This document shows positions 24,408 through 63,521 of a DNA stretch of 64,000 nucleotides, one piece after another; positions within the stretch are counted from its first letter, which is position 1, and every line of letters begins with the position of its first letter. Below the pieces are notes generated by a model. The model had not been told where the DNA came from and searched no databases. It saw only the letters and a program-made list of their open reading frames with translations. Origin of the DNA: Aphrocallistes beatrix (Eukaryota; Porifera; Hexactinellida; Sceptrulophora; Aphrocallistidae); the NCBI GenBank assembly GCA_963281255.1, contig OY725500.1:1178001-1242000 (forward strand), given 5' to 3'. A program made the position numbers and the translations under genes.

Positions 24408-25757
24408 CAGTCTGTCACATAAAAATTGAGAAAAGCTAATTTGTATGATGCGATTACATTACTCGCTTTATCATTGAATGGTTATCACTAAATATTGGCA
24501 ATACATTCCTGATCAATACTTTATTGGAAATCCGCCTGATTCAATTACCATCTGGCAGCGACGTGGCATTGAATTAATGTATGGCTGCAGGAAATCGGGA
24601 CTTATATTTGACCATAGAATTTCTAACTCCTTCTTAAGTTCCTTGACAGTTCTAGGACCTTTTTTTGAAAGCTCTTGCTTTACCCAACCAAATAAGTTTT
24701 CAATGGGATTCAAATCAGGGCTTTGTGATGGCCAGGGTAGCTGTTGAGGTATGTTCTTTGCAATAAATTCCTTGGTAACTTTGGCGGTGTGCTTAGGGTC
24801 ATTGTCCATGGCCAAACGCCACTCGTTCTGGTGAAAAACATCCGCCTGTCTTAGTAAATGTCCTTCTAGTATGCTTATGAACATCTCACTATTCATATTC
24901 TCTGTAAAAATGCATAGTGGAAACGTTCCCATCGAGCTAAATGCCGCCCATACATTGATTTTAGGGACATGTTTGGTTGTTGGGACAACGCGAATTTTGT
25001 TAGACTTTGTCCACATTTTTATTTTCCCTCTAGAGAGCCAGATAGACATCTCATCTGCGAATATTGTTCGATACCAGAACTTTTTAGGATCTTTGTTCTT
25101 CCTAGCCCATTTTACCCGATAGATACGATTCGTTTCACTAACTAGAGGAGGATTAGATGGATAGTTCTTCTTATAATCTAGTCTTTTTAAGGCTCGCCGA
25201 ACTGTCTCATACGATGGCCTACCGGGAGCAAGATTGGCTAAGGAACGCAAGGATAAGTATGGCTTATGCTTGATTTGCTGGGCCAAACTTCTCTGAATAG
25301 AAAGCCTAAGCCGAGGTGGCCTGCCAGACCCTTTCTTGCGTCCCAATCCTACGCTCTTGGAAATCCTGGACCCTACCCTATATACAGTGGACAAACTAAC
25401 ACCCAAAGAATTGGATATAGCTTTCATTGAAAGTTGACCACGCTTTAGGAGAACATCAATAGCCTCACGAATCTGTTTCTGATCCATAACTAATAGAAAT
25501 GAGTTCACAATCAGCTAATAAAGTTTAAACGAAAATATAGTAAGAAAATAAAGTAAATGACGTCATCAAAAATAATGTAGGTGGTCTTACTAGTCATTAT
25601 CAATCAATTGTGGGATAGCCAAATTTGTTTCTGAGTAGAGCTAATAGAGTATATCGCTAAGTAAATGCATTTGTATTGAAGCTTCTGTACTTCTAATGGA
25701 TGCTAATTATGGTAGAATACTAATAAAGATTTTTCTCAATTTTTATGTGACAGACTG
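24408..25757 (-). mobile_element. Apparently intact Tc1/mariner transposon, 1350 bp
   Basis: Two 27-bp terminal repeats (24408-24434 and 25731-25757, starting CAGTCTGTCACATAAAAATT) are exact reverse complements. They are flanked by the TA duplication (24406-24407 and 25758-25759). The element encodes one full-length transposase. It lies about 440 bp upstream of the VCPIP1 start codon. Perfect ends and an open frame suggest recent insertion. Confidence 0.94.
24513..25487 (-). CDS. Tc1-family transposase (DD34E)
   Basis: A 324-residue nuclear cut-and-paste enzyme. The N-terminal third has two helix-turn-helix motifs (KAISNSLGVSLSTVYRV; SLRSLANLAPGRPSYETVRRAL) joined by a GRPPR AT-hook-like box at about residues 54-58. 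The catalytic DDE domain follows: Asp in FADEMSIW, Asp in MDNDPKHTAK and Glu in PDLNPIENLFGWV. There are 34 residues between the second Asp and the Glu, as in Tc1. There are no stops or frameshifts. I place the start at the ATG at 25487 (MDQKQIREAI); an in-frame GTG at 25508 is less likely. It could be active. Confidence 0.93.
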   Translation of the reverse strand: MDQKQIREAIDVLLKRGQLSMKAISNSLGVSLSTVYRVGSRISKSVGLGRKKGSGRPPRLRLSIQRSLAQQIKHKPYLSLRSLANLAPGRPSYETVRRALKRLDYKKNYPSNPPLVSETNRIYRVKWARKNKDPKKFWYRTIFADEMSIWLSRGKIKMWTKSNKIRVVPTTKHVPKINVWAAFSSMGTFPLCIFTENMNSEMFISILEGHLLRQADVFHQNEWRLAMDNDPKHTAKVTKEFIAKNIPQQLPWPSQSPDLNPIENLFGWVKQELSKKGPRTVKELKKELEILWSNISPDFLQPYINSMPRRCQMVIESGGFPIKY

Positions 25758-32431: not shown

Positions 32432-33620
32432 AAAATTAGTCTAAGACCTGGAACTGTGTTTTGTATGGTGAGTTTTGTTGAGAAAAATTGTGTCGTGGCA
32501 CGCAGCGAAAATCGCGAATCAGGGTCCACTGTTTTCAAATTATCTTTCTAGAATCTTCGAATTCTAGGAAAAAATTAACTTACAAATTCTCCTCGAACAC
32601 TCTAAATTTATAGAAATACAGGATGTTTAGATCAGTACATATTGAAATGCAATTTTGGGTAATTTTGCAAAATGTACTAATTTGGACTCGTGAAATAATA
32701 ACTTTCTCTTGTTTCTGATAATGAATTCAATGGATTTGTGAATTATTTATATGGTGAATGAAAGGTTTCTGGTGCTAAATCGTCATGGAACATCGATTAT
32801 GAAGACATTTTTTACAGAATCAGTGGAGGGGACGCAGCATTAGTTCGAAGTTCAAAGTAGTCGTTAGTTCGAATTTTGCATGTAGTCGTTAGTTCGAATC
32901 GAATTTGGGCATGTAGTCGTTAGTTCGAATCGAATTTGGGCATGTAGTCGTTAGTTCGAATTGGAATTTGGGTACGTAGTCGTTAGTTCGAATCGAATTT
33001 GGGCATGTAGTCGTTAGTTCGAATCGAATTTGGGCATGTAGTCGTTAGTTCGAATCGAATTTGGGCATGTAGTCGTTAGTTCGAATTGGAATTTGGGTAC
33101 ATAGTCGTTAGTTCGAATCGAATTTGGGCATGTAGTCGTTAGTTCGAATCGAATTTGGGCATGTAGTCGTTAGTTCGAATCGAATTTGGGCATGTAGTCG
33201 TTAGTTAGAATCGGATTTAGACATAAACAGGGAGTTGTAATTTGTGGGGACGCAGCATTAGTTCGAATAGATTTTCAATGTTGTACTGTCATTGAGTGGC
33301 ATTTGGAAGAGATATTTATAAGAACTGAGGGAAAAGAAGCATTTTCTTTAGAGAATAGTAGAAAATTGAGGATGAAAAAGGCATTTCTGAACAAAGGGGG
33401 TAGTTGAGTGCCATTATGGAGAGCTAATGATAATGAGTATATGCCCAAATTCGATTCGAACTAACGACTACATGCAGAATTCGAACTAACGACTACATAC
33501 AGAATTCGAACTAATGCATGCGCCTCTCAGTGGACCCTGATTCGCGATTTTCGCTGCGTGCCAGGACACATTTTTTCTCCACAAAACTCACCATACAAAA
33601 CATAGTTCCAGCTCTTAGAC
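32432..33620. mobile_element. 1.2-kb foldback element containing a minisatellite
   Basis: The left arm (about 32441-32533, GGAACTGTGTTTTGTATGG onward) is the near-perfect complement of the right arm (about 33528-33620). Between them is the 31-bp minisatellite and, near the right arm, three units of it in inverted orientation (33441-33512). No transposase seen. Confidence 0.8.
32857..33216. repeat. 31-bp minisatellite, about 11-12 units
   Basis: The unit is TAGTCGTTAGTTCGAATCGA followed by ATTTGGGCATG. Two units are variant, with TTGGAATTTGGGTAC. Spacing is regular, so array length may vary between individuals. Confidence 0.9.
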
Positions 33621-33752: not shown

Positions 33753-33899
33753 CAGGCCCGGCGGAAGCAACTTTTTATTGGTCCGGCCATAGCGAAAGTT
33801 GGTCCGGCCAAAAGCAAATTTGCATATGAAAATAAGCCATAATGACATAAAATTGGTCCGGCCAAAGCCGGACCGACCGGGCCTATTCCGCCGGCCCTG
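33753..33899. mobile_element. CAGGCCCGGCGGAA MITE, copy 1 (TSD TTTAT)
   Basis: 147 bp with ends CAGGCCCGGCGGAAGCAAC and CCGCCGGCCCTG. TTTAT is repeated at 33748-33752 and 33900-33904. The interior contains repeated GGTCCGGCCAAAG. Confidence 0.85.
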
Positions 33900-37370: not shown

Positions 37371-40300
37371 TTAGGTTTGGTCTGTTGGAATAGTGACTGG
37401 TATCATCATGCTGCCAGAGATGAAGAATGTCAGCGAATCGTAATCCATTCCTCCCACCCAGAAATCCAAACCCCAATCCTGGTTCGTCATGAATTCTACT
37501 TTCTTCAACTTTGGATCAGTGCTATTGTTTTCAGCAACCAAGTAGTTTCCTACTAGCGCGTTCAATGGAGACTGAAATAAATATTGCAATTCCAGTTGCT
37601 TGAAATATCCATCAACGTTTATGCTCTTCCTGATTTTCGCCATTTGAAGATATCTCGAGCAAAGGTACGACAGTCTATTCCTATCCTCAGGTTTGATCCC
37701 AGTCATTAGGGCCAGGACGATCAGTTTTGAAGAATAAAAATTAATGAAATTCATTATCAATGAAGCCAACGGATCGCCGCTATACTTTTTAACAATCTCT
37801 TCGATGTCCTTTTTAATGTTGTCGCATCGCTTTGTCATAAAGGTGTAAAAATCCCACTTAAACTGCCCCGTCCCGCTGTTAGCATTGATAGTATTAGAGT
37901 TAGACAATGCTCCTGGATTGGGTTGAAAGGGATTCTCCCATTGCGGATAACCTCCACTCTTCGGGAGACGATCATCAAGGATCATTGGATATGCAGCGAA
38001 ATTGTCACTTAGCTTTAAACATGCAGCGATGAAATCGATCGAAGCATCGAGCTCTTTAGTCTCAGGGTTTCTAATCAGGTTAGCTCTTCTGACGTTGAAA
38101 TTCCCTGTTTGAAACCCTACAAATACTGGATCTACAGCTCTATGTCTTGTGATCGCCTTGTTGAGTTGAGGAAAAGTTGGCCAGTAAGTAACACAATTAT
38201 TCTCCAAAGGATAGAAACAGAAATCAGAGTTTACAAGTTCCTTCTCAAGGAGTTGTTCGACATCCTTCATTTCTTTATTTTTTTCCTCAGTTCCATCATA
38301 ATAACAGGGATAGACTAGTTTTGCAGCTGTTATTTTCACACCTTCGTAAAATGCATCTGGAACATAATCTCTTCTAAACTTCCCATCTTTGGATTTGGGG
38401 CTGAGATTTTGGTTTTGAGTGTGGAAAGCACCGTCAAAGTCAGGATCGCCAGGAAACTCGTACATAAACATATTCCCACCGAATCCCCTTGGGTCAAATG
38501 TTGGGTCTGGGTCAGAGGCTTGCATGAAAATGGCACGTCCATTAAACTGAATGTTAAGGTAGTACTTGTCTGTGTAGACTATTTCCTTGGAAGGTATTTT
38601 ATCACCGGTTGGTTTTTTATCACTGGGTGGAGCTTTCGGAGAAAGACCATTAGTCATTCCCAAATATAAAACTTGGATAGTTTTTTGAATATTCTTCAGT
38701 AGAACACTAACTCGCTTAACGACAGCTTTGTTGTCTGTAAGCCACATACCAACTGATGAGTCTAGTTTTTTGTAGAAATCTTGATCAAAGTATTTGAAAC
38801 TATCTTCATGGAGCATTTTCAATGTCAGTACAACATCATGAAACTTATCGAGTGGATCGACGAGTGTGGAATCGTTTTCATTAAGCATAAACGGGAAACC
38901 AGCTGTGCAATTCTTCTCATCCTCACTCAGTTGGAAGTAACTGAGGATCTCTCCCAATGGATAAATAAGCACTGTCATGATGGGGAAGAATCTGATGTTG
39001 TTGTACCGTTGAGTTATTTTGTATTTTTCATTTAGTTCCTCGGGAATGGCAACCATCGAGCCTTCCAATATTTTGAGAAGGAGGTGAAAGGATGTGTTTG
39101 CGATCTTAATAACTTTTTCTGTTGCTTCTGTGTATCCTTTTTTGGGAGCTGGCATTGATGGACGGGAAAATAATGCACTAAAGTCCTCATCATTCTTCTT
39201 CTCACTTTTCATTAGAGTGAGGTAATTGATGATCATTACAAGAAATCTACCCCAATGCGATGGTTCAATTTTTAAAAGATCCAGAAATCTATTCTTAGTA
39301 ATCGGTGGGGAGGGTAAACCTAAGTCTTCCCATTCATCTAATAGTTTAATTGCACGGTTTACATCTTGTAGTAGCAGGAGTGTTTCATCAATTTCCCCCA
39401 ACAATCTCTGTCCAATTTTCGAAAGTTCTGTGCTCTCTGCCCTTTTTCTTTTTTTCTTCTGGCAAGGAATCAGGAAACTTCACATTTTTTACCCATTCAA
39501 TTAAATCATGGATAGCCTCGTAGTACAGCTTTCCCCCTCCTGCACCTTCTCCTTGTGTCTCGATTGTAGTGATATCTTTTAAACAGCTGTCAACATCAGT
39601 GTACTGCTGTATGATCGGTTGCATGTTCGGTTTCATAGTAAACATATGGTCACCTATTTGTTCATGGATATTCTTAAAACCATCGCTGATAGCATCGTAA
39701 AGTTGTGCGATACTTAGATAGGCGAAATCATCCTCCTTCTTATCTTCCCCTTTATTCCCAAACTGTATGAATCCTGACTTTGGTTGAGGTTGTGATTGAT
39801 CTTCAGGGTATGGTTCTTCATTTTTTGCGAAACGTAACAATGACACCAGATTCAATCGAGTTAACTTCGTTGGCATATGACATTCTCCATAACTGGAAGG
39901 AAATTTGACAATTTGCAAGTCTGGAACTCCTCCGATTGAGATGAGCATGTCGCTGGCCATTCTGAAATGTTGCATCTCTTGAATGCAAATGAAGATGAAT
40001 TGGTTTTTATATTCTCTGCGAATTTCAGAATAATAAGCTGAATTTTCATCTTTTTTCTCAACTTCATCCGAGTTGTTGATGACACTGAAGCAAGCGAACA
40101 AATATTCAAACATGACAGTCAATTCTAACTCAATTGCGATCTGTAGAGCTTCTCTTAGCTGGTTGATGGTTTGAATTTCTGTTAGAGACTTGGCTTTATC
40201 AGCGCTCAGCTTTAATACGAATGGTTTCATGTTGTGAAGATGCTCACTGATAGCTGAAATCACTTCTGGATGCTTTTTATCATATTTGCTGACTAAATGT

Positions 40301-41153
40301 CCGATTATGTTCTCTGTTTTGGCTAGTTGTGAATCCAGGAGCAATCGAGTGCCTGAAAAATAGAGAAAAATTCTAGTCATCTGTGATGTGCACTATTACT
40401 TAAACCAAGGTTGAAATTTAACCTGAATTAAATAGGTTTAGCCCAGCCCATTGAGCTGAACCCGATTTAACCCGGGTTTAACTCGTTTTTTCCCGATATT
40501 ATCCTTGGGTTGGGTCTTAATTAATCGTTAAATAATAATTCATAGATATCACTGTCAGTGTCAGAATACATTTTTTTAAACTGTCGACTCTACATATAAT
40601 TAACTCAAACTCAACAGAGCGAGTTGACATGATTATTAAATAGTAGCGCATGATAATTAGTTTTCGTAAAACGCTTCAAATAATTATAAATTCCATGAAT
40701 TCCTATTAGTACGGTAGTCATTATATTTATTGTTAATTATATATTTCAGGCCCGGCGGAAGCAACTTTTTATTGGTCCGACCAAAGCGGAAGTTGGTCCG
40801 GCCAAAAGCAAATTTGCATATGAAAATAAGCCATAATGGCATAAAATTGGTCTGGCCAAAGCCGGACCAGTCGGACCAGTTCCGCCGGCCCTGTATTTTG
40901 ACATAATATTGATTCTCTATATTATCGCAAAATGCATATGGGCAAATAAAGTTGATTCGCTTAGAATAATGAGGTTTAACCCGGTTTCACCCAGGGGGTG
41001 AGTTAAACCTACCAACCCTGATTTGAACACTTCATAAATAAACGACTCGGAACTAAAAAGTATATGAGTAGATTGAATAATTTAAACTAAACAAAAGACA
41101 GTTAAGAACTTACTTTTCAATATTGATTCACCTTTTGCACTCACTGTTGCCAT
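37371..41153 (-). CDS. Large protein with VioB/RebD-type ferritin-like domain (two exons, frame break in assembly)
   Basis: Exon 1 is 41114-41153 (MATVSAKGESILK) and exon 2 is 37371-40352, joined across a GTAAGT/TTTTTCAG intron. The reading frame changes near 39440-39450, inside a GAAGAAAAAAAGAAAAAGGG tract. Dropping one A joins the two frames into a protein of about 1000 residues, close to the length of bacterial VioB. Residues about 84-160 look like the ferritin-like domain of iminophenyl-pyruvate dimer synthases (Pfam family of VioB/RebD): LQIAIELELTVMFEYL, then QEMQHFRMASDMLISIGG with the Glu and His ligands. The second part is unassigned; it has GFGGNMFMYEFPGDPDFDG and a C-terminal WGLDFWVGGMDYDS. 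Bacterial relatives couple oxidised tryptophan in violacein and rebeccamycin synthesis; the role here is unknown. An inverted pseudogene copy follows at 43537. Confidence 0.72.
39430..39455 (-). other. Frame break in A-rich tract of the VioB-like gene
   Basis: The upstream frame would end at the TGA at 39388-39390 (ENWTEIVGGN). The downstream frame has no ATG nearby and reads KIGQRLLGEIDETLLLLQD through the junction. This suggests one coding sequence with an extra A: a homopolymer error, a real mutation or ribosomal frameshifting. Confidence 0.75.
40747..40893. mobile_element. CAGGCCCGGCGGAA MITE, copy 2 (TSD TATTT)
   Basis: 147 bp in the intron of the VioB-like gene. TATTT is repeated at 40742-40746 and 40894-40898. 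The inverted gene copy on the other side lacks it at the corresponding place (near 43790). Confidence 0.85.
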
Positions 41154-43149: not shown

Positions 43150-44095
43150 AGGATAGTAAATACCCCAATTTGTATCGCTTCCCCGCCCAACGTGCCTTAA
43201 AGTAATAATGACGCGACACATTCCAGGGGCAACCGTGGGTTTAAAATATGTCTACAGAGGTGGCTAAGCAGCCACAAAAAAGACAAAACGTTGGAGTAAA
43301 ATAACCTGACTCGAACTGTTTATTATTTAGTTGCTTTTTTCTGAGAAAGTATTAATTCATGAGCACAATTAGAAATCTATAAACAATATGATTGCTCCAC
43401 AGAATGTAAAATGTAAATATATTGTCATCATTCCCTTTGATGGCTTAATTCAACGTATTTCAACAACTGGTTTAAATACGTGTAGACATCATTCTTAAAC
43501 GCAATAGTTTTTTAATAGTGTTACAGAAGTGAAGAGATGGCAACAGTGAGTGCAAAAGGTGAATCTATACTGAAAAGTAAGTCCTTAACTTCAAATGTCT
43601 TTTGTTTAGTTTAAATTATTCAATCTACTCATATATATTTCAGTTCCGAGTCGTTTGTTTATGAATTGTTCAAATCAGGGTTGGTAGGTTTAACTCACCC
43701 CCTGGGTGAAACCGGGTTAAACCTCATTATTCTAAGCGAATCAACTTTATTATCCCATATCCATTTTGCCATAATATAGAGAATTTAAAAAAAAGAAGTA
43801 CTATAATTAACAATAAATGTAATTACTACCGTACTAATAGGAATTCATGGAATTTATAATTTTTTGAAGTGTTTTAACGAAAACTAATTATCATGCGCTA
43901 CTATTTATTAATAATCATGTCAACTCGCTCTGTTGAGTTTGAGTTAATTATATGTAGAGTCGACAGTTTAAAAAAATGTATAATAATAATAATAATATAC
44001 ATTTATATAGCGCAGATTCCATAATAATATGTTCAAGTGCGCTTTTATACTAGTGTATATCACAGATGACTAGAATTTTTCTCTATTTTTCACGA
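43150..44095. repeat. Right arm of large inverted duplication
   Basis: Reverse complement of 40352-41545 without the MITE. It carries the duplicated promoter, exon 1 and intron of the VioB-like gene. Confidence 0.85.
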
Positions 44096-44655
44096 ACTCG
44101 ATTGCTCCTGGATTCGCAACTAGCCAAAACAGGGAACATAATCGGACATTTAGTTAGCAAATATGATAAAAAGCATCCAGAAGTGATTTCAGCTATCAGT
44201 GATCATCTTCACAACTTGAAACCATTCATATTAAAGCTGAAGGCTGAAAAATCCAAGTCTCTAACAGAATGGTGTCATTGTTACGTTTCGCAAAAAATGA
44301 AGAACCATACCCTGAAGATCAATCACAACCTGAACAAAAGTCAGGATTCATACAGTTTTGGGATAAAGGGGAAGATAAGAAGGAGGATGATTTCCCCTAT
44401 CTAAGTATCGCACAACTTTACGATGCTATCAGCAAAGGTTTCGAAACGATCCATGAACGAATAGGTGACAATATGTTTACTATGAAGCCGAACATGCAAA
44501 CCATCAAAAAGCCATACACTGATGTTGACAACTGTTTAGAAAGATATCACTACAATACAGACACCAGGAGAAGGTGCAGGAGGGGGAAAGCTGTATTACG
44601 ATGCTATTCATAATTTAAACGAATGGGTAAAAAATGTGTTTCCTGATTCCTTGCC
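43537..44655 (+). pseudogene. Broken inverted copy of the VioB-like gene
   Basis: Exon 1 (43537-43576) and its GTAAGT donor are intact, but the acceptor TTTTTCAG has become TTTTTCAC. In exon 2 a deletion at about 44265-44270 joins AAGTCTCTAACAGAA to the sequence for VSLLRFAKNEEPYPEDQ. This removes the ferritin-like segment with its Glu and His ligands and shifts the frame. Similarity continues to CCTGATTCCTTGCCA at about 44655 and stops at a microsatellite. The C-terminal two thirds of the gene are absent. Confidence 0.85.
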
Positions 44656-44790
<135 letters not shown>

Positions 44791-44794
44791 ATAG

Positions 44795-45474
44795 AACCGC
44801 CTACTCCCGACTCTACAATATATTCCAAATTTGGTCCAAGATTGGGTCATAAATACTTTTGGACAACAGGGAAAGGTATTAGTGGATCAGGCACTAACTC
44901 CTTACCATATGAAGCAGGATCTTTCGATGCAGCATTATGCGAAGCCAAGATAGGGAACGCTAATATCCCATCATATTCTTCAGTATTTCCCAAGGATGCA
45001 CAAGAGTACGATAGGAATGATTACTAGACAACATGGGGCGAGGTAGTAGAGGTTATACTCGCTAATACACATGGGTCGGTGGCATATGGGGAACAATCCA
45101 CTAAGTTAGCGTCTGGGCTGCTCCAGTCACAAGTCTTCGAAAGAAACATGTTCTTAGATAGCTTCGCTTGCGAGTATTCAAGCAACTCGGACTCAGGCGG
45201 TAATCCAAGTGAAGATGAATTTCAGAGTATCACTTTTCAGGATATCTACGAAATGATTGAAAAGTGTTACGGAGAAATAGCCGAACCAGAGTCAGAGATG
45301 AAAATGGGCAAGATGATGTATACAAAAGATGGATTGCATTCGTTTACTCCGTTTAAAAGAAATTATGATGAGCTGGTAATACCTGTGCCCATAAAGAAAA
45401 AGGGTGTTAACCATGGAACGGTTCTAGCAGGCATAGTTTTCACAGAATGGTTATACCCACAGGTATCATAGTAC
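44795..45474 (+). pseudogene. Pyruvoyl-dependent arginine decarboxylase-like gene fragment
   Basis: One frame, open except for a TAG at about 45025-45027, resembles bacterial pyruvoyl-dependent arginine decarboxylases (AaxB/PvlArgDC): KYFWTTGKGISGSG, then LPYEAGSFDAALCEAKIGNA and NIPSYSSVFPKDA. The Ser-Ser pair in SYSSVFP is where family members self-cleave to make the pyruvoyl group. Further on, GEVVEVILANTHGSVAYGEQ and GTVLAGIVFTEW match the family's later strands. These enzymes convert arginine to agmatine without pyridoxal phosphate. No ATG is seen before the microsatellite, so the 5' end is missing. Reading it as a pseudogene fits best; a very recent nonsense mutation or a hidden intron are alternatives. 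A bacterial origin is inferred. Confidence 0.6.
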
Positions 45475-47337: not shown

Positions 47338-48055
47338 ATGAAATAAATCTTGTAACTTGCATAGTGAAACGAGGAATTTTATGTTTTTTAAGACTAGTAA
47401 TAACTTAGTAATCCTTATACCGATTCTAGCGAATTACCTCATCATTACTCAAATCTTCTATTCCACATTGGAAATACCATTTCTAGTTTTCGATATTTAT
47501 GTCCTTTTAAAAGTGAGTGAGAAGTTCTATCTTCTACTGAAAGGAATGTGCGAGGAAGCTAAATGGCACTCTACGCCACAAGAATATAAAGAGAAACAAA
47601 GAACAACAAAAACATTCGCAATCCTCCAACCAATAACGTTGTTTACATTCATCTTCTGCTTGATATTAGTTGTGACAGAATCAATTCGCGAGTGGACTTC
47701 TCTAACTAACTATCATCTAACTAACGGTTACTGTTTAGTGCAATATTTATTCCCAAACTATCCAATCAGTTTCACAATACCAGAAAACATAATAGATACT
47801 TCATCGATGATATATGAGGGTTGTTCGATCATAACAGCAATCTGCAATGGAATTATTAGTGTCATAGCATTTCTAGCAAACTTTGCAATCCTCACTTCAA
47901 TCATTGTAAAGCTGTTGAGAAGAAGAAAGAAGTACATCCATGTGAATGAGTGGATAACTCGCCCTCTCATGGAGAGGTACAGAGCTGATGTGGAAAGACA
48001 CATAGAAAGGAGACCTCCATTCATTCAAGCCTTCAGATCTCAGATAATATACTGA
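47338..48055 (+). pseudogene. 7TM-like family member 1 (D-type), truncated and deleted
   Basis: It corresponds to copy 3 (50882-52027) from the NKSCNLHSETRNFM region to the stop but lacks the first ~340 bp. An internal deletion of about 111 bp joins ATTCTAGCGAA to TTACCTCATC, removing the conserved LRRAYLSVPYRRWIIGY block. The rest is open and ends in the family's constant C-terminus. No ATG at a suitable place. Confidence 0.8.
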
Positions 48056-48440
48056 CACTTGTGACAGTGTCTCTGTGTGTGTTGATGTGTCCAGATATCT
48101 GGGGTGGATCCAGCTACGGATTTCAGGGGAGTTAGGAGGCTAACACCCTGAGGGAGTGGCTGGATGCACCCTGAAAAATATCTGTACTATTTTAATTTGT
48201 GGCTCCAATTTGATTTTGTCTTAATTTATTTTAATAATTTGATTATGGATGAGAGCATCAATGCAAAATTTAAGACATAATATTACATAGGTGAAGAGGA
48301 ATGCATTTGCATCAAGGTTGGACTGAAATCAGCTCAGGGTTTCACATTTCTAACATTCGATATTAAGGTTAACGAAGGGAGTTCGATATATATTCTTTTT
48401 CGATAACAGCTAAGTCCAGTCAATTGACACTTTACTGAAG

Positions 48441-48578
48441 CAGGGCCGGCGGAACTGGTCCGGCTTTGGCCGGACCAATTTTATGCCATTATGGCTTATT
48501 TTCATATGCAAATTCGCTTTTGGCCGGACCAACTTCCGCTTTGGCCGGACCAATAAAAAGTTGCTTCCGCCGGGCCTG
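48441..48578. mobile_element. CAGGCCCGGCGGAA MITE, copy 3 (TSD TGAAG, inverted)
   Basis: 138 bp with TGAAG at 48436-48440 and 48579-48583. The duplicated unit at 52410 has the undisturbed site (CTTTACTGAAGCCGTTG). This gives a filled and empty site pair in one window. Confidence 0.92.
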
Positions 48579-49070
48579 TGAAGCCGTTGTGACATTTGGC
48601 CTAAGATACCCAGAGAGTGAAAATAAGATCTAGATTCTAGAGCTATCTTACTAAGATCAATGAAGTTTATTCTTGCCCAATACTTCCGTGGAACATCCAA
48701 GGTTTAACCCTGAAGGTGCGATTCGTTTGTATTAGTTTTGTCTTTGTGCAATTATGTTAAGTGTCTGATGGAAAAAATATGCAAACTGGCAGAGATTGTA
48801 CCAAATTCGGCCTTAATAGACCAAATTCTAGAAATGATGATAGGAGGTGGCTTTGTGGAACAAAAGCACTCTTTTTTAAAATGAAAGTGAACCAAAATTT
48901 CAAGATTAGACAAAATAAACATTCATAAATGGATGTAAGAAATATCAAGCTAGTAAGTTTCATTATAAACCCCATCTTAATTAATGTAGTTGTGTCTAGT
49001 GACGAAGAGACATTTTGATAAAATATTCATTGCTTTCAATTCCATAGCTTATAACGATGGATAACGTATG

Positions 49071-49080
49071 TATAAATAAG
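49071..49080 (+). promoter_or_regulatory. TATA box of I-type copy 2
   Basis: TATAAATAAG, 33-42 bp before the ATG. Identical boxes precede copy 4 (52907-52916) and copy 6 (55684-55693) at nearly the same distance. Confidence 0.6.
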
Positions 49081-49112
49081 AAGTTAGTCTCTAACAGAAT
49101 ATACACAAAGAC

Positions 49113-50253
49113 ATGATTTCAACTGAACAAATTGATCGAGTAGTTTCATTTTCACTCGTTCCTTATCTGGTCATTACTGTCTTCACAATACCATACTACA
49201 TACATCAGAAAATCCTGATTTCACAGAGGATAAAGAACATACCAGCAACAACCATCTTTTCAACCGATCTCAGCAAAGTGAAAAAGAATCTCAAGATTCA
49301 ATCATTGATTTATAACTTCATCATAATCATCTCCAGCTTCGAGGCTCTTGGATGCTTGTTAATCACGGTTGATCATATATGCACCCATTTCAGTCATTGT
49401 AAAGCAAAATATCTCATAGTGAGGGTAGTAAACACAAATACAAATAAATCTTGCAACTTTCATGGTAAAACGGGGAATTATATGTTTACTCAGATTAGTG
49501 GTAGCCTAATGTTCCTTCTACCGATCCTAGTGAACTTGTTCCTATCGTACTGAGGAGAGCATATCTGAGTGTTCCATACAGAAGATGGATAATCGGATAT
49601 TCTGGCTACTTCCTGTTCAGGCTAGTTTACTTAATTCTCTCAGATTACTTCATCGTTACTCAATTCTTCTATTCCACATTGGAATTACCATTTCTAGCCT
49701 TCGATTTTTATGCCTTTTTAAAATTAAGCAAGAAGTTCTATCTTCTACTGAAAGGAATGTGCGAAGAAGCTAAATGGCACTCTACGCCACAAGAATATAA
49801 AGAGAAACAAAGAATAACAAAAACATTCGCAATCCTCCAATCAATAACGTTGTTTGCATTTATCCTCCTTCTGATATTGGTTGTGGCAGAATCGATTCAT
49901 GAGTTCACTTATATAACTCAAGGTTATTGCTTAGTGCAATACTTATTCCCAAACAATCCATTCAGTTTCACAGTGCCGGATAACATTATATACATACTTC
50001 AGATATAATAAGATACTGCAATAGTATCATAATAAAAATATGCAGTGGAATTATTGGTGTCATAGCATTTCTAGCAAACTTTGCAATCCTCACTTCAATC
50101 ATTGTAAAGCTGTTGAGAAGAAGAAAGAAGTACATCCATGTGAACGAGTGGATAACTCGCCCTCTCATGGAGAGGTACAGAGCTGATGTGGAAAGACACA
50201 TAGAAAGGAGACCTCCATTCATACAAGCCTTCAGATCTCAGATAATATACTGA
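49113..50253 (+). pseudogene. 7TM-like family member 2 (I-type), two frameshifts
   Basis: Starts ATGATTTCAACTGAACAAAT. A one-base deletion near 49543 (CCTATCG where others have CCTAATCG) and a TA gain near 49988-49992 break the frame. With these set aside, the gene aligns with its relatives from start to the common C-terminus. It is nearly identical to copy 4, which shares the second lesion but not the first. Confidence 0.85.
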
Positions 50254-50881
50254 CACTTGTGACAGTGTCTCTGTGTGTGTGTTAATGTGTCCAGATATCT
50301 GGGGTGGATCCAGCTACGGATTTCAGGGGAGTTAGGAGGCTAACACCCTGAGGGAGTGGCTGGATGCACCCTGATATATATTCATAGTTTTTTAACTTTG
50401 TGGCTCCAATTTGATTTTGTCTTAATTTATTTTAATAATTTGATTATGGATGAGAGAATCAATGCAAAATTTAAGACATAATGTTACGTAGGCGAAGAGG
50501 ATATGCATTTCCGTGGCCGTTTTGTTTGTGTCCGTTTTGACTAGCAACCCATTCATTGATCATGGCCGTAGGAAGTGGTGCCGCTGGTGAGGCCATGGCT
50601 TTACCACTTTTTATGAGTTTGCATAATTGTTTCCTTCTGAACCTAATCTTAATTAATAATCATATTGTGTGTAGTGATGAAGAGACATTATGATAAAATA
50701 TTCATTGCTTTCAATTCCATAACTTATAATGTACATAGAAAGTAACTACTGGTAAAAGGACATAGTGGCGTTGTCAACATATAAAACGTGTACATGCTTC
50801 CAAACGCAACTTCCCATTGTAAACAGTCATAGTAGATAAATAAGAGAAAAGAAGAAATAAAATAAGAAATTCTACAACAAC

Positions 50882-52027
50882 ATGGATTCAACATTTTATG
50901 ATCGAATTAACAAAGTCATTTCATTCGCACTCATTCCTTATCTGATCATTACTGTCTTCACAATACCATACTTCGTACACCAGAAAATACAGATTTCACA
51001 GAGAATAAAGAACATACCAGCAACAACCATCTTTTCAATCGATCTCAGCAAAGTTAAAAAGAATCTCAAGATTCAATCATTGGTTTATAACTTCATCATA
51101 ATCATCTCCAGCTTCGAGGCTCTTGGATGCTTGTTTATCACGGTTGGTGATATATGCAACAATTTCGATCTTTGTCATTCAAAATATCCCATAGTGAGGG
51201 TTGCAAACACAAATACAAATAAATCTTGTAACTTGCATAGTGAAACGAGGAATTTTATGTTACTTAAGACTAGTAATAACTTAGTAATCCTTATACCGAT
51301 TCTAGCGAACTTGTTCCTAATCGTACTGAGGAGAGCATATCTGAGTGTTCCATACAGAAGATGGATAATCGGATATTCTGGTTACTTCCTGTTCAGGCTA
51401 GTTTACCTAATTCTCTCAGATTACCTCATCATTACTCAAATCTTCTATTCCACATTGGAAATACCATTTCTAGTTTTCGATATTTATGTCCTTTTAAAAG
51501 TGAGTAAGAAGTTCTATCTTCTACTGAAAGGAATGTGCGAAGAAGCTAAATGGCACTCTACGCCACAAGAATATAAAGAGAAACAAAGAATAACAAAAAC
51601 ATTCGCAATCCTCCAATCAATAACGTTGTTTACATTTATCCTCCTTCTGATATTGGTTGTGGCAGAATCGATTCAGGAGTTGACTCGTATAACCAACGGT
51701 TACTGCTTAGTGCCATACTTATTTCCAAACGATCCAACCAGTTTCACAACACCAGATAACATCATACATATTTCACACATAATATATCAAGGTTGTTTGA
51801 TCATGATAGGAATCTGCAATGTAATTCTTAGTGTGCTAGCATTTCTATCACACTTGGCAATCCTCACTTCAATCCTTGTAAAGCTGTTGAGAAGAAGAAA
51901 GAAGTACATCCATGTGAACGAGTGGATAACTCGTCCTCTCATGGAGAGGTACAGAGCTGATGTGGAAAGACACATAGAAAGGAGACCTCCATTCATTCAA
52001 GCCTTCAGATCTCAGATAATATACTGA
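50882..52027 (+). CDS. Unknown 7TM-like membrane protein, D-type, intact (copy 3)
   Basis: A 381-residue protein of a family I do not recognise. Hydrophobic segments lie at about 12-32, 66-88, 131-149, 162-189, 192-206, 242-261 and 304-333. Basic residues fall in the 1-2, 3-4 and 5-6 loops and in the C-terminal tail (LLRRRKKYIHVNEWITRPLM), so the N-terminus should be outside and the tail inside, as in a G-protein-coupled receptor. The 2-3 loop is outside, with cysteines and an NKS glycosylation site. LRRAYLSVPYRRWIIGY after span 3 sits where rhodopsin-type receptors have DRY, but it is not that motif. It is the only complete D-type gene in an array of three D/I units. Single exon. It could be a chemoreceptor-like protein, a channel or another transporter. 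Confidence 0.72.
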   Translation: MDSTFYDRINKVISFALIPYLIITVFTIPYFVHQKIQISQRIKNIPATTIFSIDLSKVKKNLKIQSLVYNFIIIISSFEALGCLFITVGDICNNFDLCHSKYPIVRVANTNTNKSCNLHSETRNFMLLKTSNNLVILIPILANLFLIVLRRAYLSVPYRRWIIGYSGYFLFRLVYLILSDYLIITQIFYSTLEIPFLVFDIYVLLKVSKKFYLLLKGMCEEAKWHSTPQEYKEKQRITKTFAILQSITLFTFILLLILVVAESIQELTRITNGYCLVPYLFPNDPTSFTTPDNIIHISHIIYQGCLIMIGICNVILSVLAFLSHLAILTSILVKLLRRRKKYIHVNEWITRPLMERYRADVERHIERRPPFIQAFRSQIIY

Positions 52028-52906
52028 CACTTGTGACAGTATCTCTGTGTGTGTGTGTGTCGATGTGTCCAGATATCAGGGTTGGGTCCAGCTACGGATT
52101 TCAGGGGAAATTAGGGGCTAACTCCCCTGAGGGAGTGGCTGGATGCACCCTGAAAAATATCTGTACTATTTTAATTTGTGGCTCCAATTTGATTTTGTCT
52201 TAATTTATTTTAATAATTTGATTATGGATGAGAGCATCAATGCAAAATTTAAGACATAATATTACATAGGTGAAGAGGAATGCATTTGCATCAAGGTTGG
52301 ACTGAAATCAGCTCAGGGTTTCACATTTCTAACATTTGATATTAAGGTTAACGAAGGGAGTTCGATATATATTCTTTTTCGATAACAGCTAAGTCCAGTC
52401 AATTGACACTTTACTGAAGCCGTTGTGACATTTGGCCTAAGATACCCAGAGAGTGAAAATAAGATCTAGATTCTAGAGCTATCTTACCAAGATCAATGAA
52501 GTTTATTCTTGCCCAATACTTCCGTGGAATATCCAAGGTTTAACCCTGAGGGTGCGATTCGTTTGTATTAGTTTTGACTTTTTGCAATTATGTTAAGTGA
52601 CTGATGGAAAAAATATGCAAACTGGCAGAGATAGTACCAAATTCGGCCTTACTAGACCAAATTGTAGAAATGATGATAGGAGGTGACTTTGTGGAACAAA
52701 AGCACTCTTTTTAAAAATGAATGTGAACCAAAATTTCAAGATTAGTCAAAATAAACATTCATAAATGGATGTAAGAAATATCAAGTTAGTAAGTTTCATT
52801 ATAAACCCCATCTTAATTAATGTAGTTGTGTCTAGTGACGAAGAGACATTTTGATAAAATATTCATTGCTTTCAATTCCATAGCTTATAACGATGGATAA
52901 CGTATG

Positions 52907-52916
52907 TATAAATAAG
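52907..52916 (+). promoter_or_regulatory. TATA box of I-type copy 4
   Basis: TATAAATAAG, same position relative to the ATG (52949) as in copy 2. Confidence 0.55.
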
Positions 52917-52948
52917 AAGTTAGTCTCTAACAGAATATACACAAAGAC

Positions 52949-54090
52949 ATGATTTCAACTGAACAAATTGATCGAGTAGTTTCATTTTCACTTATTCCTT
53001 ATCTGGTCATTACTGTCTTCACAATACCATACTACATACATCAGAAAATCCTGATTTCACAGAGAATAAAGAACATACCAGCAACAACCATCTTTTCAAC
53101 CGATCTCAGCAAAGTGAAAAAGAATCTCAAGATTCAATCATTGATTTATAACTTCATCATAATCATCTCCAGCTTCGAGGCTCTTGGATGCTTGTTAATC
53201 ACGGTTGATCATATATGCACCCATTTCAGTCATTGTAAAGCAAAATATCTCATAGTGAGGATAGTAAACACAAATACAAATAAATCTTGCAACTTTCATG
53301 GTAAAACGGGGAATTATATGTTTACTCAGATTAGTGGTAGCTTAATGTTCCTTCTACCGATCCTAGTGAACTTGTTCCTAATCGTACTGAGGAGAGCATA
53401 TCTGAGTGTTCCATACAGAAGATGGATAATCGGATATTCTGGCTACTTCCTGTTCAGGCTAGTTTACCTAATTCTCTCAGATTACTTCATCGTTACTCAA
53501 TTCTTCTATTCCACATTGGAATTACCATTTCTAGCCTTCGATTTTTATGTCTTTTTAAAATTAAGCAAGAAGTTCTATCTTCTACTGAAAGGAATGTGCG
53601 AAGAAGCTAAATGGCACTCTACGCCACAAGAATATAAAGAGAAACAAAGAATAACAAAAACATTCGCAATCCTCCAATCAATAACGTTGTTTACATTTAT
53701 CCTCCTTCTGATATTGGTTGTGGCAGAATCGATTCATGAGTTCACTTATATAACTCAAGGTTATTGCTTAGTGCAATACTTATTCCCAAACAATCCATTC
53801 AGTTTCACAGTGCCGGATAACATTATATACATACTTCAGATATAATAAGATACTGCAATAGTATCATAATAAAAATATGCAGTGGAATTATTGGTGTCAT
53901 AGCATTTCTAGCAAACTTTGCAATCCTCACTTCAATCATTGTAAAGCTGTTGAGAAGAAGAAAGAAGTACATCCATGTGAACGAGTGGATAACTCGCCCT
54001 CTCATGGAGAGGTACAGAGCTGATGTGGAAAGACACATAGAAAGGAGACCTCCATTCATACAAGCCTTCAGATCTCAGATAATATACTGA
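52949..54090 (+). pseudogene. 7TM-like family member 4 (I-type), one frameshift before span 7
   Basis: Open for 298 residues from ATG through span 6, then stopped at 53843-53845 after a TA gain near 53826. Beyond it the frame for the seventh span and common tail is intact. It could make a six-span truncated product, but by comparison with copies 3 and 6 it is most likely a recent pseudogene. Confidence 0.82.
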
Positions 54091-54718
54091 CACTTGTGAC
54101 AGTGTCTCTGTGTGTGTGTTAATGTGTCCAGATATCTGGGGTGGATCCAGCTACGGATTTCAGGGGAGTTAGGAGGCTAACACCCTGAGGGAGTGGCTGG
54201 ATGCACCCTGATATATATTCATAGTTTTTTAACTTTGTGGCTCCAATTTGATTTTGTCTTAATTTATTTTAATAATTTGATTATGGATGAGAGAATCAAT
54301 GCAAAATTTAAGACATAATGTTACGTAGGCGAAGAGGATATGCATTTCCGTGGCCGTTTTGTTTGTGTCCGTTTTGACTAGCAACCCATTCATTGATCAT
54401 GGCCGTAGGAAGTGGTGCCGCTGGTGAGGCCATGGCTTTACCACTTTTTATGAGTTTGCATAATTGTTTCCTTCTGAACCTAATCTTAATTAATAATCAT
54501 ATTGTGTGTAGTGATGAAGAGACATTATGATAAAATATTCATTGCTTTCAATTCCATAACTTATAATGTACATAGAAAGTAACTACTGGTAAAAGGACAT
54601 AGTGGCGTTGTCAACATATAAAACGTGTACATGCTTCCAAACGCAACTTCCCATTGTAAACAGTCATAGTAGATAAACAAGAAAAAAGAAGAACCAAAAT
54701 AAGAAATTCTACAACAAC

Positions 54719-55347
54719 ATGGATTCAACATTTTATGATCGAATTAACAAAGTCCTTTCATTCGCACTCATTCCTTATCTGATCATTACTGTCTTCACAA
54801 TACCATACTTCGTGCATCAGAAAATACAGATTTCACAGAGAATAAAGAACATACCAGCAACAACCATCTTTTCAACCGATCTCAGCAAAGTTAAAAAGAA
54901 TCTCAAGATTCAATCATTGGTTTATAACTTCATCATAATCATCTCCAGCTTCGAGGCTCTTGGATGCTTGTTAATCACGGTTGATCATATATGCACCCAT
55001 TTCAGTCATTGTCATTCAAAATATCTCATAGCGAGGGTGGTAAACACAAATACAAATAAATTTTGCACCTTGCATGGTAAACGGGTAATTATATGTTTAC
55101 CCAGATTTGTGGTAGCTTAGTAATCTTTCTACTCAACTTGTTCCTAATCGTACTGAGGAGAGCATATCTGAGTGTTCCATACAGACGATGGATAATCGGA
55201 TATTCTGGCTACTTCCTGTTCAGGCTAGTTTACCAAATCCTCTCAGCTTACTTCATCGTTACTCAATTCTTCAATTCTACATTGGAATTATTTCTCGAAT
55301 ATCCAAGCTTTGACCCTGAAAGTGCACGATTCGTTTGTACGTATTAG
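54719..55347 (+). pseudogene. 7TM-like family member 5 (D-type), frameshifted and lacking its 3' half
   Basis: The first ~118 codons match copy 3. Small indels near 55079-55130 shift the frame. After span 4 the coding sequence is fused at about 55290-55295 to what is 3' flanking DNA in the other units (compare CGAATATCCAAG with 52527), so spans 5-7 and the tail are deleted. Confidence 0.85.
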
Positions 55348-55683
55348 TTTTGTCTTTTTACAATTATGTTAAGTGTCTGATGGAAAAAAATATGCAAACT
55401 GGCAGAGATTGTACCAAATTCGGCCTTATTAGACCAAATTGTAGAAATGATGATAGGAGGTGACTTTGTTGAACAAAAGCACTCTTTTTAAAAATGAATG
55501 TGAACCAAAATTTCAAGATTAGACAAAATAAACATTAATAAATGGATGTAAGAAATATCAAGCTAGTAAGTTTCATTCTGAACCCCATCTTAATTAATGT
55601 AGTTGTGTCTAGTGACGAAGAGACTTTTTGATAAAATATTTATTACTTTCAATTCCATAGCTTATAACGATGGATAACGTATG

Positions 55684-55693
55684 TATAAATAAG
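55684..55693 (+). promoter_or_regulatory. TATA box of I-type copy 6
   Basis: TATAAATAAG, 29-38 bp before the ATG at 55722. Confidence 0.55.
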
Positions 55694-55721
55694 TAGTCTC
55701 TAACAGAATATACACAAAGAC

Positions 55722-56864
55722 ATGATTTCAACCGAAGAAATTAATCGAGTAGCTTCATTTTCACTCGTTCCTTATCTGATCATGGCCTTATTCATAATAC
55801 CATACTTCATCCATCAAAAAATCCTGATTTCACAGAGGATAAAAAACATACCAGCAACAACAATCTTTTCAACCGATCTCAGCAAAGTTAAAAAGAATCT
55901 CAAGATTCAATCATTGATTTATAACTTCATCATAATCATCTCCAGCTTCGAGGCTCTAGCTCTTCTGCTAAGTACTACTGAGTATATATGTTCAATTTTC
56001 GGATTGTGTCAGGAATATTTTCACGAGGTGACAGTAGAAAATACAAATACAAATAAATCGTGTGAAATTTTGTATAACACGAATCTAGGTGTCTTTTTTG
56101 TTGTTAGTAGTAGCCTACCATTCCTTCTACCGATTCCAATCAACTTGTTCCTAATCGTACTGAGGAGAGCATATCTGAGTGTTCCATACAGAAGATGGAT
56201 AATCGGATACTCTAGCTACTTCCTGTTCAGGCTAGTTTGCATAATTTCAACAGAATTATTCCTCCCTACTCAGCACTTTAAATTTCTGATGGAATTACCA
56301 TTTTCATTTTTTGATTTTTGCGTTTACGTGAATGCGAGTAAGAAGTTCTATCTTCTGTTGAAAGGAATGAGCGAAGAAGCTAAGTGGCATTCCACGACAC
56401 AAGAATATAAAAGGAAGAAAAGAGAAGCAAAGGTATTTGGCATCTTAAGATCCATCTACTTATTCACCTTGACATTCTGCTTGATAATAGTTATTATGTA
56501 TTCAATCGCAAACCTGACAAGAATCACAATGAACAGCAGCTGTTTACTACAGTACGCATTCCCAAATCTTCCAATCAACTATTCTGTGCCAGGAAACTTC
56601 ATCACTATCCTAGTTAGGATAAGACTTTACTGTCGAGTTATACGGAAGATTTGTACAGGAGTAGTTGGTGTGCTAGCATTTCTATCAAACTTGGCAATCC
56701 TCACTTCAATCCTTGTAAAGCTGTTGAGAAGAAGAAAGAAGTACATCCATGTGAACGAGTGGATAACTCGCCCTCTCATGGAAAGGTACAGAGCTGATGT
56801 GGAAAGACACATAGAAAGGAGACCTCCATTCATTCAAGCCTTCAGATCTCAGATAATATACTAA
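55722..56864 (+). CDS. Unknown 7TM-like membrane protein, I-type, intact (copy 6)
   Basis: A 380-residue relative of copy 3 with the same arrangement: short outside N-terminus, about seven hydrophobic segments, a basic first loop (HQKILISQRIKNIPATTIF), LRRAYLSVPYRRWIIGYSSY after span 3 and the same basic cytoplasmic tail. The outer loops and spans 3-6 differ strongly from copy 3 (EYICSIFGLCQEYF; IISTELFLPTQHFKFL), while the loops facing the cytoplasm and the last ~55 residues are nearly identical even in DNA. It is the only complete I-type gene. Such a pattern fits receptors whose outer faces diversify while inner faces stay fixed, helped by gene conversion. No introns. Function unknown. Confidence 0.72.
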   Translation: MISTEEINRVASFSLVPYLIMALFIIPYFIHQKILISQRIKNIPATTIFSTDLSKVKKNLKIQSLIYNFIIIISSFEALALLLSTTEYICSIFGLCQEYFHEVTVENTNTNKSCEILYNTNLGVFFVVSSSLPFLLPIPINLFLIVLRRAYLSVPYRRWIIGYSSYFLFRLVCIISTELFLPTQHFKFLMELPFSFFDFCVYVNASKKFYLLLKGMSEEAKWHSTTQEYKRKKREAKVFGILRSIYLFTLTFCLIIVIMYSIANLTRITMNSSCLLQYAFPNLPINYSVPGNFITILVRIRLYCRVIRKICTGVVGVLAFLSNLAILTSILVKLLRRRKKYIHVNEWITRPLMERYRADVERHIERRPPFIQAFRSQIIY

Positions 56865-58177: not shown

Positions 58178-59350
58178 TTAAAAGAATTTAACCGAATAAG
58201 ATATAGAACACACAAGAGTATTATCGCTAGTAACTGCTATTCCCGTAGGAAATCCCTCACAATTAATGATATGTATGAACTGTCCTTCCAGTGTAAATAT
58301 TTGTATTGATTTATGGTTGCAGTCGCTAATTATGATATTACTGAACTGATCAAAACACATGAACATCCCCCATGTATCATGTCTCACACTTATCATACTG
58401 TGCAACAGATCACCTGATTTCGAAAATACATGCACATTATGAAGTGTATTCATGTCAACTGCGAAAATTTTGCCTGAATGAGTTTTCACATCACATGGAA
58501 AGTGAAGGATTTCTTTTCCTACCTCTCCTGTAAACTTTAAATCCAAATTTAGAACAACTATTCTATTATTATCATGATCTGCAACTAACACTTCGTCTTC
58601 AGCCGTTATGCCATTTGGAGATTTAAGATCTACTTCTACGCTCTTTTTCACTAACTTAAAATTAGATTTTTGGAATTTTAAGATTGAACCTAACCTCCAG
58701 TCACTTACGAACGCCCAATTGTCATCGACTGCTATGTCGTGAGGCCGAATTACTTGTCCTTTCCCGAATTCGGTTAAAAAATCGCCATCTTTAGAGAAAA
58801 CTTGAATTCTGCTGTTGTTGTAATCACACACATAGATTTTCTCTTCTTCATCGATTCTGATACCACGAGGCTCGTTTAGATCTCTCTTGTTTCCTTCATT
58901 CCCAATACTCTTGACCGGTTCCAGTTTGTCAGAGTAGAGTTTGCTTACATTTTGAATAGTTGCTACACTCTCCAGCTGTTGCAGGAGAGATTGTAGGTCT
59001 TTCGTGCTGAAGAGAATGATAGGAGCAGGAGATGGCTGTTCGACCTTTACCAGTTCTTCTTTAGTTTTTATAATGTTTTCATCCATTAGAATTATATTAT
59101 TATTCTGATGAACACTAACCTTAATCATATGTGCAACCAACTTCTCCAACTCTCGGGCCTGTTTCTTCCTCAGTTCTTCCTCGTTCAGATAGACTAGCTT
59201 CATATCGTTGAGTTGCTGGAGCAGCTCCTCTCTTTTGATAGTCACTGACTGGATGATTTTGTCGAAAAATGATCGAATCTCTTGTTCCAATCTTGTAAAC
59301 TTGTCCACTGGGATGTCGATTGGGTTTATTTGTGGGGAATTTGTTGCCAT
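58178..59350 (-). CDS. Coiled-coil NHL-repeat protein (TRIM-like without RING or B-box)
   Basis: A 390-residue protein, single exon. Residues 15-145 are a charged helical region (FTRLEQEIRSFFDKIIQSV; LRKKQARELEKLVAHMI), probably a coiled coil for self-association. Residues about 150-390 form an NHL beta-propeller: LNEPRGIRIDEEEKIYVCDY, NNSRIQVFSKDGDFLTEFG, RPHDIAVDDNWAFVSDW and later blades, including FSNIIISDCNHKSIQIFTLE. In TRIM-NHL proteins this propeller binds RNA or proteins, but here no RING or zinc B-box is present. Function is unknown, probably cytoplasmic. A TATAAATA box is at 59403-59410 on the minus strand, 53 bp before the ATG. Confidence 0.82.
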   Translation of the reverse strand: MATNSPQINPIDIPVDKFTRLEQEIRSFFDKIIQSVTIKREELLQQLNDMKLVYLNEEELRKKQARELEKLVAHMIKVSVHQNNNIILMDENIIKTKEELVKVEQPSPAPIILFSTKDLQSLLQQLESVATIQNVSKLYSDKLEPVKSIGNEGNKRDLNEPRGIRIDEEEKIYVCDYNNSRIQVFSKDGDFLTEFGKGQVIRPHDIAVDDNWAFVSDWRLGSILKFQKSNFKLVKKSVEVDLKSPNGITAEDEVLVADHDNNRIVVLNLDLKFTGEVGKEILHFPCDVKTHSGKIFAVDMNTLHNVHVFSKSGDLLHSMISVRHDTWGMFMCFDQFSNIIISDCNHKSIQIFTLEGQFIHIINCEGFPTGIAVTSDNTLVCSISYSVKFF

Positions 59351-62633: not shown

Positions 62634-63521
62634 ATGACATTTCGTTTTTCTGATACGGCGAAACAATTAGAGCTCTTGGAATTAGGTATCGACTACTGTT
62701 ACGATCATCTGGTAGCTGTGGGGAAGCAAGGTAAAAATCCCGGAGAACTTGGGTACCCTAGCTGTGTTGCCATCGATTCTAGCAACAACCAGATCTATGT
62801 CACAGAAGGTGATCCCCCGCGTGTGTCAATCTTCTCAGAGACGGGTCGATTTCTAAACACATTCTCAGATAAACTAATGAGGCGGCCATATGGTATAGCG
62901 ATCCATAAAGATAATATCTACGTGACGGACTCATCAGAACACTCAGTATTGCAATTCAAAGTGTCTGTCGACATCTGTCTCGTGGCTAGACTAGGACGTG
63001 AAGGGTCAAGGATAGGACAATTCGATAGCCCCAAACAGCTCACTATCTGTACCCTCGGAAATGTCTACGTTACTGACTGCAACAACAATCGAGTCCAAAT
63101 CCTCAGTGAGGGATTACACTATCAGCATCACATCTCGCACCATTCCATGACACGACCCTATGACATTAAATTGACTGACTTTGAAGTTTGTGTACTGACA
63201 GCTAACTCACCCTGCGTCCACATTTTCAAATACAGTGGTGAAAAGATACGTTCTCTCATCAAAAGTAGGGATATTGGAATGCATATATTTTATTCGTACT
63301 CATTCTGTCTAGATGCTGATAAGAATTTCATTATCAGTGATCCCTCTCTTCACCAACTCAGAATATATTCAAAAGAAGGAACATTCCTGAGAACATTGGG
63401 AGAACGGGATTGGGGAGGGAGGATGTTATACTTTCCACAAGGAGTAGCTCTAATTGACAATCTCAAATTAGTTGTCGCCTCTTGGAACAGAGACTGTGGT
63501 TTACAAATATTATCTTGTTAA
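62634..63521 (+). CDS. NHL-repeat beta-propeller protein
   Basis: A 295-residue protein that is almost entirely an NHL propeller. Blades can be seen at PGELGYPSCVAIDSSNNQIY, RRPYGIAIHKDNIYVTDS, GQFDSPKQLTICTLGNVYVT (ending DCNNNRVQIL), DADKNFIISDPSLHQLRIYS and YFPQGVALIDNLKLVVAS. There is no RING, B-box or coiled coil and no signal peptide. I chose the ATG at 62634 because it is followed directly by a conserved-looking FSDTAKQLELLELGIDY leader; an upstream exon cannot be ruled out. This is a different subfamily from the 58178-59350 protein. Function unknown. Confidence 0.8.
   Translation: MTFRFSDTAKQLELLELGIDYCYDHLVAVGKQGKNPGELGYPSCVAIDSSNNQIYVTEGDPPRVSIFSETGRFLNTFSDKLMRRPYGIAIHKDNIYVTDSSEHSVLQFKVSVDICLVARLGREGSRIGQFDSPKQLTICTLGNVYVTDCNNNRVQILSEGLHYQHHISHHSMTRPYDIKLTDFEVCVLTANSPCVHIFKYSGEKIRSLIKSRDIGMHIFYSYSFCLDADKNFIISDPSLHQLRIYSKEGTFLRTLGERDWGGRMLYFPQGVALIDNLKLVVASWNRDCGLQILSC

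Follow-up and report, generated by a model that had tools for sequence, protein, structure and literature searches.

Six related gene copies and their history

The window analysed here is a stretch of 64,000 nucleotides from the glass sponge Aphrocallistes beatrix (contig OY725500.1, below C14:1,178,001-1,242,000, in a genome of 100.5 Mb and 28 contigs that are given C numbers), and at 47,341-56,864, all on the + strand, it carries six related copies of a gene for a predicted seven-transmembrane (7TM) protein. An initial annotation had described these copies as an unrecognised 7TM-like family arranged in paired units of two types, D and I, with exactly one gene of each type intact. Two of the six are indeed full-length open frames, D2, of 381 amino acids (aa), and I3, of 380 aa, the other four being broken; that such frames arose by chance is ruled out by more than 100 homologous places with matched conservation. 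The array and its repeats are laid out as follows:

47341..48055, + strand: D1, a broken D-type copy, truncated at its 5' end (from ~residue 113) and with an internal deletion at 47,433
48454..48578: a dispersed repeat of 125 bp, an insertion that separates D1 from I1
48579..51460: tandem duplication copy 1, holding I1 and the 5' half of D2
49113..50253, + strand: I1, broken, with an I-type 5' end and a D-type body; stop at codon 147
50882..52027, + strand: D2, an intact single-exon gene of 381 aa with a predicted GPCR-like 7TM fold (GPCR, G-protein-coupled receptor)
52415..55287: tandem duplication copy 2, holding I2 and D3
52949..54090, + strand: I2, broken, with an I-type 5' end and a D-type body; stop at codon 299 (53,843), the tail lying in another frame
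54719..55290, + strand: D3, of D type and broken by a stop at codon 134 (55,118), with the 3' half missing (ends ~55,290)
55722..56864, + strand: I3, an intact single-exon gene of 380 aa, the one copy in the window whose body is of I type

The array is the product of tandem duplication. A 2.88-kb block is present twice, 48,579-51,460 and 52,415-55,287 being 97.2% identical over 2,884 columns, and within it the coding stretches of I1 and I2 are 99.3% identical, with 8 substitutions and 1 gap. The codon-147 stop of I1 comes from a 1-base gap relative to I2, and since I1 also has the codon-299 lesion of I2, inside the duplicated block, the unit that duplicated already carried a broken gene. D1 corresponds in two pieces to the region of D2, 47341-47433 to 51217-51309 (97.8%) and, across the deletion, 47433-48441 to 51420-52420 (92.3%), while directly after D3, from 55,297, the DNA resembles the upstream region of I1. 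Other copies of the 125-bp repeat lie at 40,747-40,871 and 33,753-33,874 (122 bp), at 96.7-97.6% identity. Synonymous differences between D2 and I3 are uneven, from 0.07 in the tail up to 0.96 in transmembrane helix 6 (TM6), as would be expected if gene conversion or recombination had passed tails, TM7 and intracellular loop 2 (ICL2) from copy to copy. The family expands by tandem duplication, with copies dying by frameshifts and truncations and with 5' ends and tails being swapped by recombination or gene conversion, and the D/I array is one young outcome of this duplication, loss and exchange.

A large family with a predicted receptor fold

A six-frame search with D2 found at least 108 family places in the A. 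beatrix genome, 55 of which (counted from the table of places) are free of internal stops and cover 330 or more of the 388 query residues. The largest array, C4:820,300-904,806, holds 23 of the 108 in 85 kb, on both strands, and a divergent subfamily (C8:4.6 Mb and C19:2.7 Mb) groups with the main family when profiles are compared (E 3e-47). Of 93 family proteins, 29 (the window supplying four) reach 97% identity or more, across 90% or more of their length, to a sequence read from this genome; one relative from the protein search, P0067, has a best-scoring match here of only 39% identity, so that one other species, if not more, must be represented among the public contigs. The only relative in a named organism is a hypothetical protein of Oopsacas minuta, also a hexactinellid sponge, and the family is probably hexactinellid-specific, restricted, as far as seen, to glass sponges. 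A description of it was not found in the available parts, supplements aside, of the literature on glass-sponge genomes and sponge GPCRs. The main text of the Aphrocallistes paper contains neither 'GPCR' nor 'receptor' and reports tandem clusters without functional prediction (PMC10282587), and the Oopsacas paper treats G proteins and GPCRs in a single paragraph of its section on signaling pathways, naming eight G-alpha genes and FzdB (PMC10280926).

Searches by sequence support the view that this is an unrecognised 7TM receptor-like family. Pfam searches of 63 members gave no 7TM family among 25 of the 27 matched families, the other two being weaker than E 0.56 with one member each, and the insect-type families 7tm_6 and 7tm_7 are not among the matches listed for those 25; the weak Pfam rows (the best TMIE, E 0.0029, in 2 of 63 members) were set aside as scattered low-scoring matches. 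PF00001 (7tm_1) did not match D2, I3 or two divergent members, 7tm_2 (Adhesion/Secretin) is not among the Pfam matches listed for family members, no Frizzled (PF01534) 7TM sequence match was found in the family, and class C features are likewise absent, the short N-terminus leaving no large extracellular domain and Pfam giving no 7tm_3 match. NCBIfam searches yielded no credible family and those of PDB sequences were empty. A scan of IMG/VR returned 28 pattern stretches with no relative among them, and in a viral fold library, where the top match had E 0.13 and a viral GPCR came 15th with E 0.95, none of the matches was convincing.

Structure prediction places the family among known folds. A seven-helix architecture is predicted, and single-protein models form a GPCR-like seven-helix bundle, a known receptor fold as opposed to that of a non-receptor family. 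All 50 matches listed in a fold search with two models are GPCRs, the list being a re-ranking of Foldseek's top 1000 only; insect receptors are absent from it. The matches include the class A, F and T receptors GPR34, CB2, FZD1, P2Y12/P2Y14 and TAS2R, with one class B row, GIPR. Identity to these in the listed rows is only 4-13%, and the family differs from classes A, F and T in having no Pfam 7TM match, in lacking class A motifs, in the long continuous helices that its models show through ICL3 and the tail, and in a conserved tail motif of its own.

The outside N-terminus and inside C-terminus proposed in the initial annotation fit the charge rule, by which the topology is assigned. Mean K+R counts are 3.1, 4.1, 8.1 and 11.2 in ICL1, ICL2, ICL3 and the tail, as against 0.9 in the N-terminus, 3.0 in extracellular loop 1 (ECL1; with 2.9 D+E), 0.3 in ECL2 and 1.9 in ECL3. 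The sides so defined also differ in conservation, column entropy being 0.96-1.27 bits in ICL1, ICL2, ICL3 and the tail and 2.76-3.06 bits in ECL1-3. In four disjoint pairs of close copies, the ratio of nonsynonymous to synonymous differences (pN/pS) is 0.21 (bootstrap 0.11-0.39) at 133 cytoplasmic codons, helix ends included, 0.98 (0.68-1.41) at 94 outer codons, and 0.92 (0.67-1.32) at 154 membrane codons. Constraint on the inside and freedom on the outside, together with many young duplicates and dead copies, is the usual picture of a chemoreceptor family, a likeness by analogy and no proof.

The conserved cytoplasmic motifs of the main family are SKVKKNL in ICL1, LRRxYLxxPY in ICL2 and FYxLLKGRxxEAxxHST in ICL3, followed by WITRPLMERYRA...RPPFIQAFRS in the tail. 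TM2 and TM5 each carry an acid in 70 of 70 members (Glu/Asp and Asp/Glu, respectively), Arg150 at the end of TM3 is found in 71 of 71, with Pro157 seven residues on in 67, and Glu221-Ala222 of ICL3 is present in all 71. A Cys before TM3 co-occurs with one in ECL3 (27 members with both, 28 with neither, 13 and 1 mixed; n=69, a count inflated by kinship of rows), and ECL2 has a Cys in 7 of 71; this pattern suggests an ECL1-ECL3 disulfide instead of the TM3-ECL2 bond of class A.

The D and I types

The order D, I, D, I, D, I given in the initial annotation stands for the 5' ends, which alternate (D1 has none), and fails for the bodies, which read D, D, D, D, D, I. It is by their 5' ends that I1 and I2 are labelled I: they share upstream DNA with I3 (48,691-49,811 and 55,297-56,420, at 85.8%), and their first 22 residues are 71-76% identical to I as against 50-56% to D, a weak N-terminal call given D:I matches of 2:5 (I1) and 3:4 (I2) at 9 diagnostic positions. 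At the 115 positions where D2 and I3 differ, the bodies score D:I 64:22 (I1) and 64:21 (I2), and over residues 133-275 the two copies are, segment by segment, 86, 70-75, 97 and 85-88% identical to D2, compared with 71-77, 40-45, 77 and 42-45% to I3. Such mosaics are not confined to the window, as a clear chimera at C20:229 kb joins an I-type N-terminus (I:D 7:1) to a D-type body (I:D 18:57); the N-terminus at C20:1,525 kb is ambiguous (3:4).

Seven arrays were typed (the window, C20:226-252 kb, C20:1.52 Mb, C1:6.43 Mb, C1:7.22 Mb, C8:1.01 Mb and C8:2.53 Mb), counting bodies with at least 20 matching diagnostic positions; outside this count stand three shorter D pieces, one shorter I piece on the opposite strand of C8, three pieces of ambiguous type, including a distant family member, and those consisting of a 5' end only. 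The arrays hold 18 D-type and 4 I-type bodies, two of the latter being fragments, and three of the seven have no I-type body. In transcription order D precedes I in the window, and I comes first in all three of the remaining arrays that have an I-type body. A quick IQ-TREE of 78 rows, with support from the Shimodaira-Hasegawa-like approximate likelihood-ratio test (SH-aLRT) only, makes D and I sister groups (100% each, 99% together) deep in one branch of the larger family, with 70 of the 78 rows outside the D/I clade.

These results bear on the suggestion, central to the initial annotation, that D and I are constantly paired and work together as a two-subunit receptor or channel. The linkage seen would fit an obligate heteromer encoded by paired genes: each of the 4 I-type bodies has a D copy on its own strand no more than ~7 kb away, so the types are not usually unlinked, and the C20:229-245 kb array, like the window, has both types intact. 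This proximity is explained by tandem co-duplication, and the unit that duplicated here carried a broken gene. With I1 and I2 being D by body, D bodies far outnumbering I bodies, three arrays lacking I altogether, the order reversed in the other arrays that have it, and most of the family tree lying beyond the D/I clade, constant pairing does not hold. The body types, the copy numbers, the gene order and the broken gene common to both copies of the unit lead us to reject D and I as functional subunits, and we regard the obligate two-subunit receptor or channel as extremely unlikely. What was described as a two-gene D+I unit is best understood as a pattern of duplication that takes its name from the 5' ends.

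Candidate function and the receptor repertoire of the genome

The reading we prefer, and hold with moderate confidence, is that D2 and I3 belong to a large family of single-exon, ~380-residue 7TM proteins of GPCR fold that act as receptors. Working singly or together with similar members, each protein would respond to varied cues from outside: ligands would bind to the outer loops and helix bundle, which evolve fast, and the conserved cytoplasmic face would pass on a signal common to the family, with a heterotrimeric G protein as the most plausible recipient; G-alpha genes are present in the same genome. A bolder form of this, offered tentatively and with more doubt than belief, would make the family a separate GPCR class, the main environmental chemoreceptor set of glass sponges in place of class A rhodopsins, with a cytoplasmic partner reading a code (LRRxYLxxPY, EAxxHST and WITRPLMERYRA...RPPFIQAFRS) absent from every family searched.

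Descent from sponge Rhodopsin-like (class A) GPCRs, as an offshoot so diverged that its sequence lies beyond the reach of Pfam, would account for the class A structures among the best fold matches and for the Arg and Pro at the end of TM3, whose spacing equals that between DRY and the ICL2 proline of class A, DRY(x5)P. The acid that should precede the Arg is missing, however, and, as the initial annotation had noted, the rhodopsin motifs are absent: [DE]R[YFWH] occurs in none of 71 members (residues 101-220 of each) and NPxxY in one. There is no conserved TM6 or TM7 proline (as in CWxP, no TM6 column having more than one Pro in 71), the ECL2 Cys is rare, and hhalign gave the family a probability of 0.1% against the class A receptor of its own genome and 0.6% against a class C receptor of the window, single-sequence templates making this a weak test. 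The genome has only one PF00001 place, as against 126 Rhodopsins reported in the Amphimedon queenslandica survey (PMC4302439), which speaks for such an offshoot; on balance we judge it unlikely. Less probable again is a 7TM ligand-gated ion channel (7TMIC) of the insect gustatory or odorant receptor type, or some other non-GPCR 7TM membrane protein, which we consider very unlikely. Length, seven helices, a large lineage-specific expansion and the lack of any sequence link to GPCRs would suit it, but the K/R distribution places the N-terminus outside, opposite to the 7TMIC topology, 7tm_6 and 7tm_7 are not among the Pfam matches listed, and the listed fold matches, within Foldseek's top 1000, are GPCRs. 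A search of the genome with PF08395 gave no match, and its controls gave none either.

Several known systems resemble the glass-sponge family in part. Insect 7TMICs are likewise ~380 residues long. They form expanded families, as do the nematode chemosensory GPCRs (NEMCH), which are also lineage-restricted (PMC11526382). No nematode chemoreceptor model is among the Pfam matches listed, and a chemosensory role in glass sponges is a candidate only. Nearer at hand, Amphimedon has large sponge-specific 7TM sets in its Rhodopsin-like groups, without bilaterian orthologues; the survey gathered its GPCRs by Pfam search (PMC4302439). A family with no Pfam 7TM match would therefore not be expected to be collected by a survey of this kind.

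Sponges have no neurons, and chemical sensing in them is poorly known. In the A. beatrix genome Pfam recognises one PF00001 place, 31 PF00003 places over the cut-off (of 36 listed), three PF01534 places and 134 PF00002 place rows, many of the last being two pieces of one gene; the present family ranks among the largest 7TM sets there, without clearly being the first of them. In a glass sponge, a Pfam-based survey would thus miss this family of over 100 places, and in a genome where a single class A place can be recognised. If its members are receptors, the glass-sponge GPCR repertoire has been undercounted, and the cytoplasmic code gives a handle on the signalling partner.

The sole PF00001 place, C10:4,157,008-4,158,864, holds an intact gene of one exon for a class A GPCR of 618 aa (Pfam E 2.9e-28 over the full profile), in which DRF, a W in ECL1 and NPIIY can be seen by eye. 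The window itself has two class C GPCR genes, both intact and single-exon, which lie 37-41 kb before the array, at 4,206-6,569 (+; Pfam ANF_receptor and 7tm_3) and 7,910-10,261 (-), belonging to a C14 cluster of nine PF00003 matches in ~77 kb (C14:1,109,791-1,186,899).

Adjoining the array is what appears by eye to be a broken second copy of a ferritin-like gene (44,054-45,471, +), split at 44,656-44,792 by an (ATA)n/(ATT)n repeat; a gene with a Ferritin-like domain (PF12902) lies at 39,388-40,380 (-). Two NHL-repeat beta-propeller proteins are encoded beyond the array, at 58,178-59,350 (-) and 62,634-63,521 (+), the former with an N-terminal coiled-coil-like stretch that looks TRIM-NHL-like by eye. 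The window also holds an intact Tc/mariner-type transposase frame (DDE_3 and HTH_Tnp_Tc3_2) at 24,513-25,487 (-), and a minisatellite at 32,869-33,218 with 11.3 copies of a 31-bp unit and nested periods of 94 and 125 bp.

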